Source: Haloprofundus salinisoli (GTDB taxonomy: Archaea; Halobacteriota; Halobacteria; Halobacteriales; Haloferacaceae). Taken from it: a DNA stretch of 64,000 nt. The position numbers were made by a program, and so were the translations under genes. The stretch is from contig NZ_CP083663.1 of NCBI RefSeq assembly GCF_020097815.1, positions 186,001 through 250,000 on the forward strand, in the 5' to 3' direction. Shown one piece after another: positions 27,464-62,802 of this stretch (position 1 is its first letter; every line of letters starts with the position of its first letter). A model generated the notes under the pieces. The model worked only from the letters and a program-made list of their open reading frames with translations. It did no database searches and had not been told where the DNA came from.

Positions 27464-28258
27464 TCAGAAACGGCGGCCGCCCAGCACCTGCTCGATGTCG
27501 GCGAAAGCGTCGAGTACGTAGTCGGGTTCGACCGCCGACTCGGCCAGCGCGCGGTCGTCGGTGATGCCGGTTTTCACGAGCACCGTCGTCATCCCCGCCG
27601 ACGCGCCCAGCGCGATGTCGGTGTCGAGTCTGTCGCCGACAATCAAACATCGCTCGGCGTCGTGGCCGAGGCGGTCGAGCGCCGATCGGCGGGCGTGCGC
27701 GGAGGGTTTGCCGAGCGTCGCGTCCGGCGAGCGGCCGGCGACGCCCGCGACGGCGTGGGTCATCGCCCCGGAACCCGGTACGTCGCGGTCGACCGCCGGG
27801 ATAGTCATGTCGGGGTCGGTGCTCAGGAAGGGAACCGACTCGTCTTCGAGCGCGACCATCGCCGCCACGAGGTCGTCGTAGTGGAACTCGCGGTCGACGG
27901 AGACGACGACGGCGTCGGCGGCCGTCGGGTCCGCCGTGACGGTCAGGCCCGCGTCCTCGAACTGGGCCGTGAGGCCGGTCTCGCCCACGACGAACAGCGA
28001 GTCGGCGGCGTGTTCGGCTTCGAGGTACGCCGTCGTCGCCGTCCCCGACGTGAGCACCTCGTCGGGGTCGACGTCGATACCGGCGCGGGCGAAGCGCTCG
28101 GCGTACACCGGGGGCGCTTTCGTCGGGTTGTTCGAGAAGAAGACGCGGTCGACGCCCGCCCGACGCAGGGCGTCGAGCCCGGTCGTCGCTCCCGGTATCC
28201 GTTCGTTTCCCCTGAGAACCGTCCCATCGACGTCGAGTACTGCCCCGCGAAACTCCAT
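27464..28258 (-). CDS. HAD superfamily IIA phosphatase (NagD-like)
   Basis: 264 residues. AVLDVDGTVLRG has nucleophile D9 and acid-base D11 of motif I; FFSNNPTKAP is motif II; TLGKPSAHA holds the motif III Lys, and VGDRLDTDIALG motif IV. The cap is type IIA as in NagD and 4-nitrophenyl/phosphoglycolate phosphatases. It dephosphorylates a small metabolite (a sugar phosphate or phosphoglycolate, not resolved). Divergent from arfA across 177 bases. Confidence 0.9.
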   Translation of the reverse strand: MEFRGAVLDVDGTVLRGNERIPGATTGLDALRRAGVDRVFFSNNPTKAPPVYAERFARAGIDVDPDEVLTSGTATTAYLEAEHAADSLFVVGETGLTAQFEDAGLTVTADPTAADAVVVSVDREFHYDDLVAAMVALEDESVPFLSTDPDMTIPAVDRDVPGSGAMTHAVAGVAGRSPDATLGKPSAHARRSALDRLGHDAERCLIVGDRLDTDIALGASAGMTTVLVKTGITDDRALAESAVEPDYVLDAFADIEQVLGGRRF

Positions 28259-28435: not shown

Positions 28436-29215
28436 GTGACGAACACGCAGTTGACGCTCATCCAGATAGACAACTACGGACCCTGGACGGTCACCCCCGA
28501 ACCGAGACGGGAGATGGACCTCCAGACGCTGCAGTCTCGCCTCTTTGCGGACCTCGCGCAGTTCGTCGGCAGCCGCGACGGCTACGCCTTCTTCACACGC
28601 TTCGACAACATGGTCGCGGTGACGAACGGCCTCGACCGCGCCGACCACGAGCTCATGCAGGAGTCGATTCGGAACCGCTACCCCGTGACGCTCAGCCTCG
28701 GCGTCGGCGTCGACGAGGTACCCGTCGAGGCCCTCGAACGCGCCACCGAGGAGGTTCAACTCGCCGGCAGCGCCCAGGACGGCGACCGCCGCGAGGTGCT
28801 CGGCGGCGAGTTCCACGCCTCCTCGGGCACCGACGACCTCCACATCGCCCACTTCGACGTCAACGACGCCACCGGTAAGTACACCGACCGCCTCAACGAG
28901 TTCGACTCGTTCATCCACATCGAACAGGGCTACGCGAGCCTGATGCGCCACATGCGCGAGGCCCACGGCGCGCTCTCCTTTTTCGTCGGCGGCGACAACA
29001 TCATCTCCGTCTGCCCCTCGCTGTCGGAGAGCAAGTACCGAAGCGCCATCGAACACGTCGAGTCGGAAGTCGGCGTCGAGCTGAAAGTCGGCGTCGGCGC
29101 GGGCGAGAGCGCCCACGTCGCCGGCTTCGCCGCCAAACACGCGCTCGAAGACTGTCGACACCGCGGCACCGACATCGAGTTCGCCGCCGCACCGGCGCAC
29201 GTCAGCGACGACTGA
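28436..29215 (+). CDS. arfA: GTP cyclohydrolase III
   Basis: 259 residues from a GTG. It opens GTP to 2-amino-5-formylamino-6-ribosylamino-pyrimidinone phosphate, the first step of archaeal riboflavin and F420 chromophore synthesis. TQLTLIQIDNYGPWTVTPEP, FTRFDNMVAVTNG, VTLSLGVGVDEVP and FFVGGDNIISVCPS are diagnostic; the fold is palm-like, and residues 125-140 are acidic. The GTG (28436) starts the conserved TNTQLTLIQ segment; upstream codons look non-coding. The next three genes follow with gaps of 2, 7 and 0 bases. Confidence 0.93.
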   Translation: MTNTQLTLIQIDNYGPWTVTPEPRREMDLQTLQSRLFADLAQFVGSRDGYAFFTRFDNMVAVTNGLDRADHELMQESIRNRYPVTLSLGVGVDEVPVEALERATEEVQLAGSAQDGDRREVLGGEFHASSGTDDLHIAHFDVNDATGKYTDRLNEFDSFIHIEQGYASLMRHMREAHGALSFFVGGDNIISVCPSLSESKYRSAIEHVESEVGVELKVGVGAGESAHVAGFAAKHALEDCRHRGTDIEFAAAPAHVSDD

Positions 29216-29217
29216 CC

Positions 29218-30264
29218 ATGCCCGCACGCTCCGTGACGTTCACCGCTCCACGCGAAGTCCGCGTCACGGAGTCCGAAGTTCCGACGCCCGACGACGGCGA
29301 GGTGCTCGTCGAGACGGCGTACTCGGCTATCAGTCCGGGGACGGAACTGCTCATCTACCGCGGCGAAGCCCCCCGGGAACTGGAAGCCGACGAGACCATC
29401 GGCGCGCTCGACGGCTCGCTCGACTACCCGCTGCGGTACGGCTACGCCGCCGTCGGTACCGTCGCCGCCGTCGGCGACGCCGTCGACGAGGCGTGGCTGG
29501 ACCGTCGCGTGTTCGCGTTTCACCCCCACGAGAGTCACTTCTGCGCCCCGCCGACCGAACTCCACCCGGTGCCCGACGACTGCTCGACGGCGGCGGCGGC
29601 GCTGCTTCCGAACGTCGAGACGGCGGTCAACTTCGTCATGGACGGCCGGCCGATGGTCGGCGAGCGCGTCGTCGTCTTCGGACAGGGGTTGGTCGGTCTG
29701 CTGACGACGGCAGTGCTCTCGTCGTTTCCGCTCGCCGAACTCGTCACCGTCGACAGCGTCGCCGAGCGCCGCGCCCTCTCACGGGCGTTCGGTGCCGACG
29801 AGAGCGTCGCGCCGGAGGAGATAGACGACCGCTTCGACCCCTCGGGTCCGTCGCTGGACGGCGACGCGCGCGGACACACCAGCGACGGCGCGGATCTGAC
29901 GTTCGAGCTGTCGGGTAATCCGGCGGCGCTCGACGCCGCCGTCGGCGTGACGGGGTACGACGGCCGCGTCGTCGTCGGGTCGTGGTACGGCACGAAACCG
30001 GTGACGCTCGACCTCGGCGGCCGGTTTCACCGCAGTCGGATCCGACTCCAGAACAGCCAGGTGAGCACGCTCGACCCGTCGCTTCGCGGGCGGTGGGACA
30101 GCGACCGCCGCCTCGACGTGTCGTGGGACCGCCTCGCCGACTTCGACGCCGAGGGCCTGCTCACCCACCGCGTTCCCGTCGACGAAGCTGAACGCGCCTA
30201 CGAGTTGCTCGACTCGAAATCCGAAGCCTCCGTGGGTATCCTCTTTACCTACGGCGGTCCGTAG
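29218..30264 (+). CDS. Medium-chain dehydrogenase/reductase (BchC/alcohol dehydrogenase-like)
   Basis: 348 residues, starting two bases after arfA. AISPGTELLIYRGEAP near residues 38-53 and YPLRYGYAAVGTVAAVG are typical of the zinc-dependent MDR branch that includes BchC; the nucleotide-binding GQGLVGLLTT is near 155-165. The four-cysteine structural zinc site is absent. It should oxidise or reduce a hydroxyl on an NAD(P)-dependent substrate. Its place between GTP cyclohydrolase III and a PTPS homologue suggests a GTP-derived or glycosylated substrate (inference). Confidence 0.8.
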   Translation: MPARSVTFTAPREVRVTESEVPTPDDGEVLVETAYSAISPGTELLIYRGEAPRELEADETIGALDGSLDYPLRYGYAAVGTVAAVGDAVDEAWLDRRVFAFHPHESHFCAPPTELHPVPDDCSTAAAALLPNVETAVNFVMDGRPMVGERVVVFGQGLVGLLTTAVLSSFPLAELVTVDSVAERRALSRAFGADESVAPEEIDDRFDPSGPSLDGDARGHTSDGADLTFELSGNPAALDAAVGVTGYDGRVVVGSWYGTKPVTLDLGGRFHRSRIRLQNSQVSTLDPSLRGRWDSDRRLDVSWDRLADFDAEGLLTHRVPVDEAERAYELLDSKSEASVGILFTYGGP

Positions 30265-30271
30265 CGACAGT

Positions 30272-30649
30272 ATGTACTCGGTTACCGTCCGTCGGTCGTT
30301 CATCGCCCAGCACTTCCTGACGGTCCCCGACGCCGGACCGGAGGGCGAGTTGCACTCGCATCGCTTCGGCGTCGAACTCCGGTTCGAGGGGTCGACGCTG
30401 AACGAGTACGGCTATCTCGTCGACATCGACGACGTGAAGGCGGCGCTGTCGCCGACCGTCGACCGATACCGCGACGCGACGCTGAACGACCTCCCGGAGT
30501 TCGAAGGGCAGAACCCGAGCGTCGAGCGACTCGCGCGGGTTCTCTGCGAAGCGGTCGTCGACGAGGCGACGCTCGAGAGTCCCGAACGGGTCCGCGTGAC
30601 GGTGTGGGAAGACGAGGAGGCGGCGGCGGCGTACGAGACGGCGCTCTGA
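30272..30649 (+). CDS. 6-pyruvoyl-tetrahydropterin synthase family protein
   Basis: 125 residues. Zinc ligands are H14 (FIAQHFL) and H28/H30 (ELHSHRF); NEYGYLVDIDDVK, FEGQNPSVERLA and VRVTVWED are conserved. The position before the HxH where PTPS and QueD use a catalytic Cys is occupied by E26 here, giving an ELHSH motif similar to the Glu-type PTPS-III group. So it probably acts on dihydroneopterin triphosphate or a related pterin, but not as a classical QueD. It begins 7 bases after the MDR gene and ends one base before the glycosyltransferase. Confidence 0.85.
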   Translation: MYSVTVRRSFIAQHFLTVPDAGPEGELHSHRFGVELRFEGSTLNEYGYLVDIDDVKAALSPTVDRYRDATLNDLPEFEGQNPSVERLARVLCEAVVDEATLESPERVRVTVWEDEEAAAAYETAL

Positions 30650-31747
30650 ATGCGCGTCGGCATTCTCGTCTACGGCGATCTCGACGAACGTTCCGGCGGC
30701 TTTCTCTACGACCGCCGGGTCGTCGAACATCTGCGCGAACGCGGCGACGACGTCGTCGTGTTTTCGCTGCCCGAGCGCGGCTATCTCCGCTCGACGGCGG
30801 ACAACCTCGACGGCTCGCTGCCCCGCCGCATCCGTGCGGCCGACCTCGACGTCCTGCTGCAGGATGAGCTCTGCCACCCGTCGCTGGCGTGGCTCAACCG
30901 TCGACTCGGCGTCGACGCGCCGGTCGTCGCCGTCGTCCATCACATCCGCGCCGCCGAGGCACGTTCGGTGTGGCGAAACGCGCTCGTACGGCGTCTCGAA
31001 CGGGCGTATCTCCGGTCGGTCGACGCGTTCGTCTGCAACAGCGAGACGACGCGGCGGGCCGTCTCGACGCTCGTCGGCGGCGATGCGGCCGGGACCACCG
31101 CTCCGTCGGTCGTCGCCTACCCGGCGGGCGACCGCTTCGGGACGACGGTCTCCGCCGCTCGCGTCCGCGAACGCGCGCGCGACGGTCCGCTCCGCGTCGT
31201 CTGCGTCGGCAACGTCACGAGACGCAAGAATCTGGAGACGCTCCTGGCGGGGTTGGCGCGGATTCGCCGGCCCTGGGAACTCGTCGTCGTCGGGAGCCTC
31301 GCCGTCGACGCCGAGTACGTCGCGGAACTCCGTTCTGCCGTCGACCGGTTGCGCCTCGACGGCCGGGTTCGTTTCGCCGGTCGACTCGACGACGCGGCGC
31401 TCGCGGCGCTGTACGAGCGAAGCCACCTGTTCGCGATGCCCTCGACCCACGAGGGGTTCGGCATCGCCTACGTCGAAGCGATGGGGTTCGGACTCCCGGT
31501 CGTCGCGTCCGCCGCCGGCGGCGCGAGCGAACTCGTCGCCGACAGGACGAACGGCTATCTGGTCGACCCCGCCGACCCGACGGAGGTGACGGACGCCGTC
31601 GCCCCGCTGTGCCGGAACCGCAAGCGCCTCGCGCGGATGGGGGTAGCGGCGTTGGCGACGTACGAAGCCCACCCGACGTGGGCGGAGACCGGCGCGCGCG
31701 TCGGGTCCTTTCTCGATTCGCTCGCTGCCGGGTCGGATTCGGCGTGA
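30650..31747 (+). CDS. GT4 family glycosyltransferase
   Basis: 365 residues of GT-B fold. The C-terminal Rossmann half has VVCVGNVTRRKNLETLLAGL, then MPSTHEGFGIAYVEAMGFGL with the E-x7-E donor-sugar motif, and PVVASAAGGASELV. The N-terminal half (MRVGILVYGDLDERSGGFLY) binds the acceptor. It would attach a sugar from a nucleotide donor. It starts directly after the PTPS stop, so the products should be linked: either a glycosylated pterin or an unrelated lipid or polysaccharide. No signal peptide; cytosolic. Confidence 0.88.
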   Translation: MRVGILVYGDLDERSGGFLYDRRVVEHLRERGDDVVVFSLPERGYLRSTADNLDGSLPRRIRAADLDVLLQDELCHPSLAWLNRRLGVDAPVVAVVHHIRAAEARSVWRNALVRRLERAYLRSVDAFVCNSETTRRAVSTLVGGDAAGTTAPSVVAYPAGDRFGTTVSAARVRERARDGPLRVVCVGNVTRRKNLETLLAGLARIRRPWELVVVGSLAVDAEYVAELRSAVDRLRLDGRVRFAGRLDDAALAALYERSHLFAMPSTHEGFGIAYVEAMGFGLPVVASAAGGASELVADRTNGYLVDPADPTEVTDAVAPLCRNRKRLARMGVAALATYEAHPTWAETGARVGSFLDSLAAGSDSA

Positions 31748-61047: not shown

Positions 61048-61866
61048 GTGTCCGGGAGTACTCGCGCCCGTCACGAGAGCGCACTCGCCAGCCTCCGCCG
61101 CCGTCTCGCGGCGTTCGCGGTCGTCGCCGCGCTCGCGACGTGTCTCGCCGGCGGCGCGCTGTTGGCGTCCCGTCTCGCGGCGGCGACGGTCGGAGCGTGG
61201 CTCTTCGTCGCAGCCGCGGTTCTCGCCGTCGAACTCGGGTGGGCCACCGGGCAGCTCGACCGAAACCGGCGGGCGGGTGAGACGCTGCTCGCCCGCCTCG
61301 GGACCGGAAATTTCGTCACGCTCGGTCGGGGGGTGTTGCTCGCGTGGGTCGCCGCGTTCGTCGTCGTGGACTGGACCGACACTGCCGCGCTCCTGTGGGT
61401 TCCGACCGCGCTCTACGGCACCGCCGCGGCGCTCGACGCCGCCGACGGCGCGCTCGCGCGTGGAAACGACCGCGTGACCGGCTTCGGCACGTCGCTGGAC
61501 CTCGAATACGACGCGCTCGGAGTGCTGGTCGCCTGTTCGGTCGGAGTCGTCGCGGGTCTGCTGCCCCTCTGGTATCTCTCGATCGGTCTCGCGCGCTACG
61601 CGTTCGGCCTCGCCCGCTACCTGCGTCGCCGCCGCGGTGTCCCCGTGTACGACCTGCCGCCGCGCGTCAGTCGCCGCCCGCTCGCAGGACTCCAGATGGC
61701 GTTTCTCGCCGCCGCTCTGTCGCCGGTTCCCGACCCGTCGGTGAGAACCGCCGGAGCGACGGTGTTCGGCGGGGCGCTGCTGCTCGGGTTCGGCCGCGAC
61801 TGGCTCTACGTCTCCGGTCGCGTCGGCGGCGACACGAAGAGTCCGACCGAACACGTCGTCGACTGA
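61048..61866 (+). CDS. CDP-alcohol phosphatidyltransferase family protein
   Basis: 272 residues from a GTG, about six helices. The motif D-x2-D-G-x2-A-R-x8-G-x3-D-x3-D is complete in DAADGALARGNDRVTGFG and SLDLEYDALG. It transfers a CDP-linked group to an alcohol acceptor in the membrane. It is larger and more divergent than the pgsA-type gene at 18,001. Its 3' end faces a methyltransferase gene (18-base gap, opposite strand). ATTATAG about 25-30 bases before the GTG supports the start. Confidence 0.82.
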   Translation: MSGSTRARHESALASLRRRLAAFAVVAALATCLAGGALLASRLAAATVGAWLFVAAAVLAVELGWATGQLDRNRRAGETLLARLGTGNFVTLGRGVLLAWVAAFVVVDWTDTAALLWVPTALYGTAAALDAADGALARGNDRVTGFGTSLDLEYDALGVLVACSVGVVAGLLPLWYLSIGLARYAFGLARYLRRRRGVPVYDLPPRVSRRPLAGLQMAFLAAALSPVPDPSVRTAGATVFGGALLLGFGRDWLYVSGRVGGDTKSPTEHVVD

Positions 61867-61884: not shown

Positions 61885-62802
61885 TTACTCTCGCAGCCGG
61901 CCGTAGACGTCGAGGTGATGGGCGACAAACGAGAGCGCTTCGCGTTCGACCGCTGCGTGTCGCTCGTCGACCCACGCGTCGAAGCCGTCGACGTCGCCCG
62001 CTTCGCCGACAGACTGCTCGAAGAAGGAGAGCAGGTGGTGCAGAAAGTACGCCTCGTCGCCCGCGTACGGCGGGGTGACCACCCAGTCGGAGCCGCCCGC
62101 CGCGAGCACCTCGCCGCCGAACTCGGGGGCGGCCGCGAGCAGTTCTCTGCCCGTCCGACTCCCGCCGGGACGCTCCTGCGCGTCCATCGTCGCGTGGTAG
62201 GCGGCGACGATTCGGGCTTGGAGTGCGGGGTCGGCGGTCGGCGAAAAGCCCGTCTCGCCGTCGAAGGTGACCGGGAAGTACCAGCGACCGTCGTCGGCGA
62301 GCGCCGATAAGAGGGCGGGGAGCGCCGAATCGAGGTCGACGATATCGAGAAACGCGGCGGCGACGACGAGGTCCCAGGGTTCCTCGACTTCGGCGAGAAA
62401 GTCGAAGGCGTCGGCGGCGACGAACGAGACGGCGATGCGCTCGGTCTGCGTTTCGAGGACGAGGTCGGCAGTCGTCTCGTCTCCGTCGTTCTCCTCGACG
62501 GCGTACCCCGACTCTGCCGCCCACTCGACGCACCGGTCGTACCCGCGTTCGAGACTCGCTTCGTCTCTGTCGACGAGCGTGTAGGAGACCCGGTCGGGGA
62601 GGCGATTCCAGTCGAGCAGCCGGCGGAGCATCGACCCGAGACCGCCGCCGACGTCGAGCACGCGAACCTCGCCGCGGGCGGCAGCGACGTCGGCGAGGCC
62701 CGCGGCCACCGCGTCGAGCGTCGGGCGGTGGAGCGCCCGGTCGTCGATGCGCTCTTTCGCCGCGAGATAGCGCTGAAACGAGTACGACTGGGGACGTGAC
62801 AC
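61885..62802 (-). CDS. Class I SAM-dependent methyltransferase
   Basis: 305 residues from a GTG. EVRVLDVGGGLGSMLRRLLD near residues 45-64 is SAM-binding motif I and WDLVVAAAFLDIVDLDSA lies at the motif IV position. The C-terminal part (about 200-305) is an added helical domain. It methylates an unknown small molecule or lipid. Convergent with the CDP-alcohol transferase (18-base gap), so co-regulation is not implied by strand. Confidence 0.8.
   Translation of the reverse strand: MSRPQSYSFQRYLAAKERIDDRALHRPTLDAVAAGLADVAAARGEVRVLDVGGGLGSMLRRLLDWNRLPDRVSYTLVDRDEASLERGYDRCVEWAAESGYAVEENDGDETTADLVLETQTERIAVSFVAADAFDFLAEVEEPWDLVVAAAFLDIVDLDSALPALLSALADDGRWYFPVTFDGETGFSPTADPALQARIVAAYHATMDAQERPGGSRTGRELLAAAPEFGGEVLAAGGSDWVVTPPYAGDEAYFLHHLLSFFEQSVGEAGDVDGFDAWVDERHAAVEREALSFVAHHLDVYGRLRE

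Follow-up and report, generated by a model that had tools for sequence, protein, structure and literature searches.

A PTPS-family protein of Haloprofundus salinisoli with an invariant glutamate at the QueD cysteine position, probably from an archaeal sister branch of PTPS-IV

What might a PTPS-family protein that has no catalytic cysteine be doing in a haloarchaeon? The question is raised by a gene in a 64,000-nt stretch of the Haloprofundus salinisoli genome (contig NZ_CP083663.1, positions 186,001 to 250,000), here called the window. The original prediction, made from the letters of the window, took E26 of an ELHSH motif as the replacement for the catalytic Cys, likened the protein to PTPS-III enzymes of folate synthesis, excluded a queuosine-pathway role and allowed for a new product.

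The reading frame is a real gene of the PTPS family (Table 1), and its coordinates, its strand, H14 and the run E26-L27-H28-S29-H30 are as first described. In a Pfam profile search, PF01242 matches residues 4-122 with 94.6 bits, and against a cut-off of 22.4 bits this is not a chance match. The protein has the T-fold: the profile spans the whole domain, and an AlphaFold2 model (pLDDT 94, pTM 0.87) matches PTPS structures with Z scores of 15-19. The top solved match is 3d7j (SCO6650; Z 19.4, 1.4 Å, 125 aligned residues, 31% identity), followed in the comparison of the model with the PDB by P. horikoshii PTPS, QueD, human PTPS and Plasmodium PTPS (Z 15-17). The match to 3d7j is favoured by the AlphaFold2 input alignment, whose 39 sequences are the window PTPS and 38 bacterial members of the clade described below; in a single-sequence search the window PTPS is nearer to E. 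coli QueD (E 3e-10) than to 3d7j (2e-7). The plasmid records closest to it are those of Halobellus, Haloarcula and Halomicrococcus.

Table 1. Positions in the window of the PTPS-family gene, its key codons and the genes linked with it.
Feature	Position	Strand	Remarks
HAD-IIA hydrolase, divergent from GCH III	27464..28258	-	PF13344, 89.5 bits
GTP cyclohydrolase III (GCH III; ArfA)	28436..29215	+	PF05165, 283.4 bits; probable GTG start at 28436
MDR dehydrogenase related to BchC/threonine dehydrogenase	29218..30264	+	PF00107, 43.9 bits
PTPS-family protein	30272..30649	+	125 aa; PF01242
H14 codon	30311..30313	+	third zinc-ligand position of the family
E24 codon	30341..30343	+	motif ExxxHSH; invariant Glu at the QueD Cys27 position
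H28-S29-H30 codons	30353..30361	+	zinc-ligand positions, with H14
E113 codon	30608..30610	+	Glu at the family's pterin/purine-anchoring position
GT4-family glycosyltransferase (GT4)	30650..31747	+	PF00534, 118 bits
CDP-alcohol phosphotransferase	61048..61866	+	PF01066, 48.8 bits; the genome's match to this set member
SAM-dependent methyltransferase	61885..62802	-	PF08242, 30.7 bits; the genome's match to this set member

The absence of a catalytic cysteine was borne out, since the sole Cys of the protein, C92, is remote from the motif in sequence and lies in helix 84-98 of the model. The glutamate that takes its place is not the one first proposed. In both pairwise and multiple alignments, E24 pairs with residue Cys27 of QueD from E. 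coli, which is a Cys in chain 4ntm and an Ala in 4ntk. Position 24 is Glu in all 43 haloarchaeal sequences, the window included, and in the multiple alignment also in 5/5 other archaeal relatives. Residue 26, on the other hand, varies among the same 43 sequences (27 Glu, 6 Asp, 3 Thr, 2 Gln, 2 Ala, 2 Val and 1 Lys), and E26 was rejected as the catalytic residue on this ground. Alignment with QueD and other archaeal PTPS upholds a Glu at the Cys site, but that Glu is E24.

H14, H28, H30 and E113 are each conserved in 43 of the 43 haloarchaeal sequences. Every one of the 116 sequences in the tree (see below) has Glu in the E113 column, which we take to be the anchor position for pterin or purine, marking the binding of a 2-amino-4-oxo ring. 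At the E24 column, Cys is present in 13/13 haloarchaeal QueDs and in the 24/24 other archaeal PTPS compared, and Ala in the 31/31 bacterial clade members used. H14 and H28 are common to all sequences compared, with H30 replaced by Ala in the same 31 bacterial members. By alignment, the archaeal members of the clade keep the zinc-ligand positions and have Glu for the QueD Cys, and the bacterial members have lost both. The Asp-His dyad is D-H in all 37 QueD and other archaeal PTPS sequences; no clade member in the tree (0/79) has it.

The window PTPS departs from the family's signatures in different ways. For QueD/PTPS-I (CxxxHGH with the Asp-His dyad), it has ExxxHSH and R67-D68; the original prediction was silent on both the loss of the dyad and the change of HGH to HSH. 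There is no Cys in the motif region that would give the PTPS-II pattern CxxxxxHGH, and the FGPAQ signature of PTPS-IV is replaced by AGPEG. The PTPS-III motif had been given as ELHGH-like, but in print, in the parts available of PMC5041015 and PMC5445326, it is ExxHGH, with Glu at -3 from the first His. Here Glu is at -4, and the -3 position is Gly in 41 of the 43 haloarchaeal sequences, Ala in one and Asn in one. Because the Glu of PTPS-III is one residue nearer to the first His, the E24 substitution is of another kind.

The PTPS gene is the third of four in the run GCH III - dehydrogenase - PTPS - GT4, with gaps of 2, 7 and 0 bases, so that the ATG of the GT4 gene immediately follows the PTPS stop codon. 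The best NCBIfam match of the dehydrogenase is bchC (69.4 bits, cut-off 291). The CDP-alcohol phosphotransferase contains DAADGALAR-x8-GTSLDLEYD, which we take to be the motif of that family, and it is adjoined on the opposite strand by the methyltransferase; both are ~30 kb from the PTPS gene. A full-length RibD_C gene sits elsewhere in the genome, outside the PTPS neighbourhood. The HAD-IIA hydrolase is found near PTPS in 16/42 haloarchaeal relatives, and was not accepted as a member of the set because it is also near GCH III in 5/15 genomes that lack PTPS. It is a candidate for the phosphatase EC 3.1.3.104, listed as a gap in haloarchaeal riboflavin synthesis in the part available of PMC8305020.

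In 60 haloarchaeal genomes, this one included, PTPS is found in 43, the dehydrogenase in 42, the methyltransferase in 40 and the CDP-alcohol phosphotransferase in 38, and whole-genome searches found none of these three partners in the 17 genomes that lack PTPS (Fisher p for co-occurrence with PTPS, 5e-14 to 7e-11, uncorrected for shared ancestry). As judged by tblastn with a threshold of 1e-5, which may count paralogues, 37 of 42 relatives carry the dehydrogenase upstream of PTPS and in the same orientation, in 35 of them at 1.25 kb or less from mid to mid. GT4 is near PTPS in 29/42 (same strand in 27), the methyltransferase in 22/42, the CDP-alcohol phosphotransferase in 17/42 and GCH III in 22/42, with no GCH III found near PTPS in the other 20. 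GCH III as such is present in 57/60 genomes, a wide presence that is expected of a riboflavin enzyme. Six genomes have two full copies of GCH III, one of which is beside the gene set in all six; in the five where the other copy was examined, no dehydrogenase or PTPS is nearby. Around the GCH III of 15 PTPS-negative genomes, the dehydrogenase, PTPS and GT4 of the set were not found.

The one PTPS-bearing genome without a dehydrogenase match (G047) is ~78% complete. Two near-complete genomes with PTPS (G030 and G041) gave no CDP-alcohol phosphotransferase match in the whole genome. A third near-complete genome, G039 (locus L070), carries PTPS, dehydrogenase, methyltransferase and CDP-alcohol phosphotransferase, and gave no match to GCH III in the genome and none to GCH II around PTPS. 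Near the Haloarcula set there is a fused Gfo/Idh/MocA - aldo/keto reductase gene (L079:3919-5889), with homologues near PTPS in 9/42 relatives (L037, L045, L047, L051, L055, L059, L062, L071 and L072); a further sugar- or cyclitol-modifying step is a possible role for it. Beside the same set is a weakly sulfatase-like protein (L079:5979-6848; 21 bits, below the Pfam cut-off). A creatininase-family protein near this set reaches 21.2 bits with the ArfB model, whose cut-off is 180, and scores better with MftE and creatininase models; its role as a deformylase is unproved.

The gene set is also found in bacteria. On a Palleronia plasmid, a PTPS homologue is beside genes for GCH II, dehydrogenase, GT4, methyltransferase and a RibD-type protein, and on a Thiodictyon plasmid, one is beside dehydrogenase, GT4, methyltransferase, RibD-type and CDP-alcohol phosphotransferase genes. 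Genome contigs scanned with four such bacterial proteins gave at least 565 relatives, of which the best 80 were used (judging from the titles, largely Pseudomonadota and Actinomycetota, plus a few other phyla). Among these best 80 of at least 565 loci, the fetched stretches (tblastn threshold 1e-6, with paralogues possibly included) contain the dehydrogenase in 79, GT4 in 76, the methyltransferase in 73, the CDP-alcohol phosphotransferase in 67, a RibD-type gene in 52, an LPG_synthase_TM-type membrane protein in 46, GCH II in 35 and a creatininase-family gene in 32. RibD-type, GCH II and creatininase genes are thus absent from many of the 80, some of which are on short contigs. Both RibD-type proteins examined consist of the reductase domain only. 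FGPAQ is present in 78 of the 80 PTPS homologues and FGPAR in one, and one was not read by pattern. A large protein, for example L086:4899-7040, is encoded in 26 of the 80 loci (in one, its first part only) and belongs to a family without a Pfam match; a product that is exported or lipid-linked might be the substrate of this protein or of the sulfatase-like protein of L079.

When the haloarchaeal alignment was searched against 148 genomes from the same phylum as the window, intermediate members were found outside the window's order. One locus (L230) reads GCH II - dehydrogenase - PTPS - GT4, and another (L226) reads methyltransferase - GCH II - dehydrogenase - PTPS - GT4, followed after ~1 kb by a creatininase-family gene. 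In both, GCH II is directly upstream of the dehydrogenase, at the site of the haloarchaeal GCH III. GCH II and GCH III belong to different families and make related products, and the swap between them points to a ring-opened GTP derivative as the common feedstock. In a FastTree phylogeny of 116 sequences and 125 columns (43 haloarchaeal, 5 other archaeal, 31 bacterial, and 37 QueD and other sequences), the window PTPS, its archaeal relatives and the bacterial proteins group in a single clade apart from QueD and the other archaeal PTPS (local support 0.994); the archaeal grouping inside the clade is weak (0.629). The bacterial sample consisted of every third of the best 80 of at least 565 relatives (27/80) and four sequences from plasmids.

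At residue 105 of GCH II (E. coli numbering), the 35 copies among the best 80 of at least 565 bacterial loci have Tyr in 18, Met in 9, His in 7 and Ile in 1. A creatininase-family gene is near 17/17 of the non-Tyr105 copies and 11/18 of the Tyr105 copies (Fisher p 0.008), a weak statistic because the association follows lineages. A Streptomyces enzyme with a Tyr-to-Met change reportedly stops at the formylamino product. It is suggestive only, and by analogy, that the creatininase-type hydrolase might deformylate the formylamino product of GCH II, as do ArfB or the bacterial BrbF (PMC9478397).

We consider it probable that the window PTPS belongs to an archaeal, Glu-bearing sister branch of PTPS-IV that works in a dedicated pathway, for which the best reading is that it is none of queuosine, folate or biopterin synthesis. 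This confidence applies to the pathway assignment only; the exact reaction is a tentative proposal. The conserved gene set gives a better reason than the original prediction did to think that the product may be new. In the proposed scheme, GTP would be ring-opened to a formylamino- or diamino-pyrimidine ribosyl phosphate, and E113 of the PTPS-like enzyme would grip the 2-amino-4-oxo ring. Since there is no Cys-Asp-His triad, the enzyme is unlikely to cut the side chain as QueD, PTPS or PTPS-III does, and may instead carry out an isomerisation or ring closure. This type of reaction is proposed because GTP cyclohydrolase I, also a T-fold enzyme, takes a like intermediate through an Amadori rearrangement and a ring closure. 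In archaea E24, near zinc, would serve as acid/base, and in bacteria the reaction would be metal-free. The dehydrogenase, with the RibD-type reductase in many bacteria, would set the redox state of the side chain or ring, and GT4, the methyltransferase and the CDP-alcohol phosphotransferase would decorate the compound afterwards, giving a glycosylated, methylated and perhaps phosphodiester-linked pteridine or pyrimidine. Alternatively, the RibD-type reductase may first reduce the ribosyl chain, in which case the closure route would be blocked and a ribityl compound would be the substrate.

Other explanations differ in what they make of the residues and of the rest of the genome. We find it hardly credible that the protein is a divergent second QueD, although NCBI labels close homologues 6-carboxytetrahydropterin synthase and the NCBIfam QueD profile separates poorly: the window PTPS scores 48.6 bits against a cut-off of 89.25, and this score has little weight, since at 71.8 bits the QueD of this same genome also misses the cut-off. 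That separate QueD, found by a search of the genome at C1:2700827, has CSRPHGH and WDH, and its best match in NCBIfam is QueD; it is followed directly by a radical-SAM gene whose five best NCBIfam matches are all QueE models, below their cut-offs. With the Cys and the Asp-His dyad absent and the window PTPS outside the QueD clade, we rejected this reading, and the earlier exclusion of a queuosine role is supported. Four haloarchaeal genomes (G009, G014, G016 and G046) have the window-type PTPS yet gave no match to the QueD query. Very improbable, too, is a PTPS-III that makes 6-hydroxymethyl-dihydropterin for folate, as had been suggested. It shares with Plasmodium PTPS a Glu in place of the catalytic Cys (PMC2229834, in the part available), but the Glu position differs and the dyad is missing. 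Moreover, the archaeal dihydroneopterin aldolase PF04038 and the PF02649 cyclohydrolase are each present in 59/60 haloarchaeal genomes, this one included, with or without a window-type PTPS, which 17 of the 60 lack. The PTPS-III/folate reading was rejected on motif position, dyad and the distribution of PF04038 and PF02649. The separate QueD with its QueE-like neighbour, together with the archaeal dihydroneopterin aldolase, makes a queuosine or folate role of the window PTPS unlikely.

The losses in the clade could also mean that the protein is a non-catalytic T-fold carrier, which would bind a pterin-like intermediate and pass it to the dehydrogenase or glycosyltransferase. The triad is present in 0/79 clade members, the second His and the Glu are lost in the 31 bacterial members while E113 is kept, and 3d7j is reported to be zinc-free and inactive as a PTPS. 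We nevertheless regard a carrier as unlikely, since the invariance of the three zinc His and of the Glu at the Cys position in 43/43 haloarchaeal sequences suggests chemistry. Quite unlikely is a step in the synthesis of coenzyme F420 (or riboflavin), for which speaks the adjacent GCH III, an enzyme that feeds both. The PTPS is lacking in 17/60 haloarchaeal genomes while GCH III is in 57/60, F420 synthesis has no obvious place for a glycosyltransferase, a methyltransferase and a CDP-alcohol phosphotransferase, and the bacterial gene set is, to our knowledge, common in groups not known for F420. An F420 role of PTPS-IV is stated from unpublished work in the part available of PMC5041015. In Haloferax, deletion of the GCH III gene gives riboflavin auxotrophy; but the reconstruction of the F420 carbon-backbone pathway there names cofH, cofG and cofC, and no PTPS, in the part available (PMC8305020, which cites a COG0720 paper that may already discuss the neighbouring PTPS).

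The preferred reading, a dedicated pathway of the PTPS-IV sister branch, can be extended to a bolder form that we hold to be rather doubtful. Archaea and bacteria would then share a cofactor or membrane-linked metabolite, for which a T-fold enzyme would bring the diaminopyrimidine by closure or isomerisation to a pteridine without GTP cyclohydrolase I. Through the dehydrogenase, GT4, methyltransferase and CDP-alcohol phosphotransferase, the pteridine would then become a glycosylated phosphodiester, perhaps lipid-anchored, in keeping with an LPG_synthase_TM-type membrane partner. The zinc- and Glu-bearing enzyme of archaea would be ancestral, and that of bacteria would have derived from it as a metal-free form. 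If true, this would be a metabolite made from the GCH II/III product and common to archaea and bacteria.

The public names that assign members of this clade to 6-carboxytetrahydropterin synthase or queuosine synthesis are very likely wrong. L076, L078, L079 and L080 are annotated in this way, and their neighbourhood and residues disagree. The bacterial half of the clade is large, with at least 565 relatives, and the literature searched gives no function for it except one unpublished F420 remark (in the part available of PMC5041015). The name PTPS-IV for the subfamily is already old; the literature searched did not yield the full gene set, its occurrence in both domains, the Glu-bearing archaeal branch or the exchange of cyclohydrolases. 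With a compact operon in a group that has genetically tractable members, and with the GCH III product as a start, the haloarchaeal branch makes the function of PTPS-IV directly testable. If our reading is true, it would mean T-fold enzyme chemistry without the classic triad.

Of the known systems, PTPS-IV is the closest. The FGPAQ cluster of 561 sequences was given this name in the part available of PMC5445326, where its neighbours include PF00925 and PF01872. PF00925 is there labelled GTP cyclohydrolase I / FolE2, whereas in Pfam it is GTP cyclohydrolase II, and that label seems to be the basis on which the paper ties the PTPS-IV neighbourhood to folate. SCO6650 (3d7j), whose motif GPAQRLHGATF makes it a bacterial member of the clade, and PTPS-IV as a whole are like the window PTPS in clade, neighbours, closest fold, E113 and lack of the Cys-Asp-His triad. 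Unlike them, the window PTPS reads AGPEG at the signature, retains H30 and has Glu in place of the PTPS-IV Ala, and its operon uses GCH III instead of GCH II. Plasmodium PTPS (2a0s/1y13), as the PTPS-III example, is similar in its T-fold (Z 15.2-15.3), in Glu for Cys and in the His ligands of what is presumably zinc; the window PTPS differs in its Glu at -4 instead of -3, the absent dyad and the absence of a folate context. QueD/PTPS-I (4ntk and 3qna; Z 16.5-16.6) shares the T-fold, the three His and the anchor Glu, but relative to it the window PTPS has Glu for Cys27, Arg-Asp for Asp70-His71 and HSH for HGH, in a genome with a QueD of its own. Finally, the ArfA/ArfB/ArfC system and the bacterial BrbF resemble the clade loci in that GCH III or GCH II, a creatininase-family gene and a RibD_C reductase recur around them, whereas the clade loci add PTPS, dehydrogenase, GT4, methyltransferase and CDP-alcohol phosphotransferase, which are unneeded for riboflavin.
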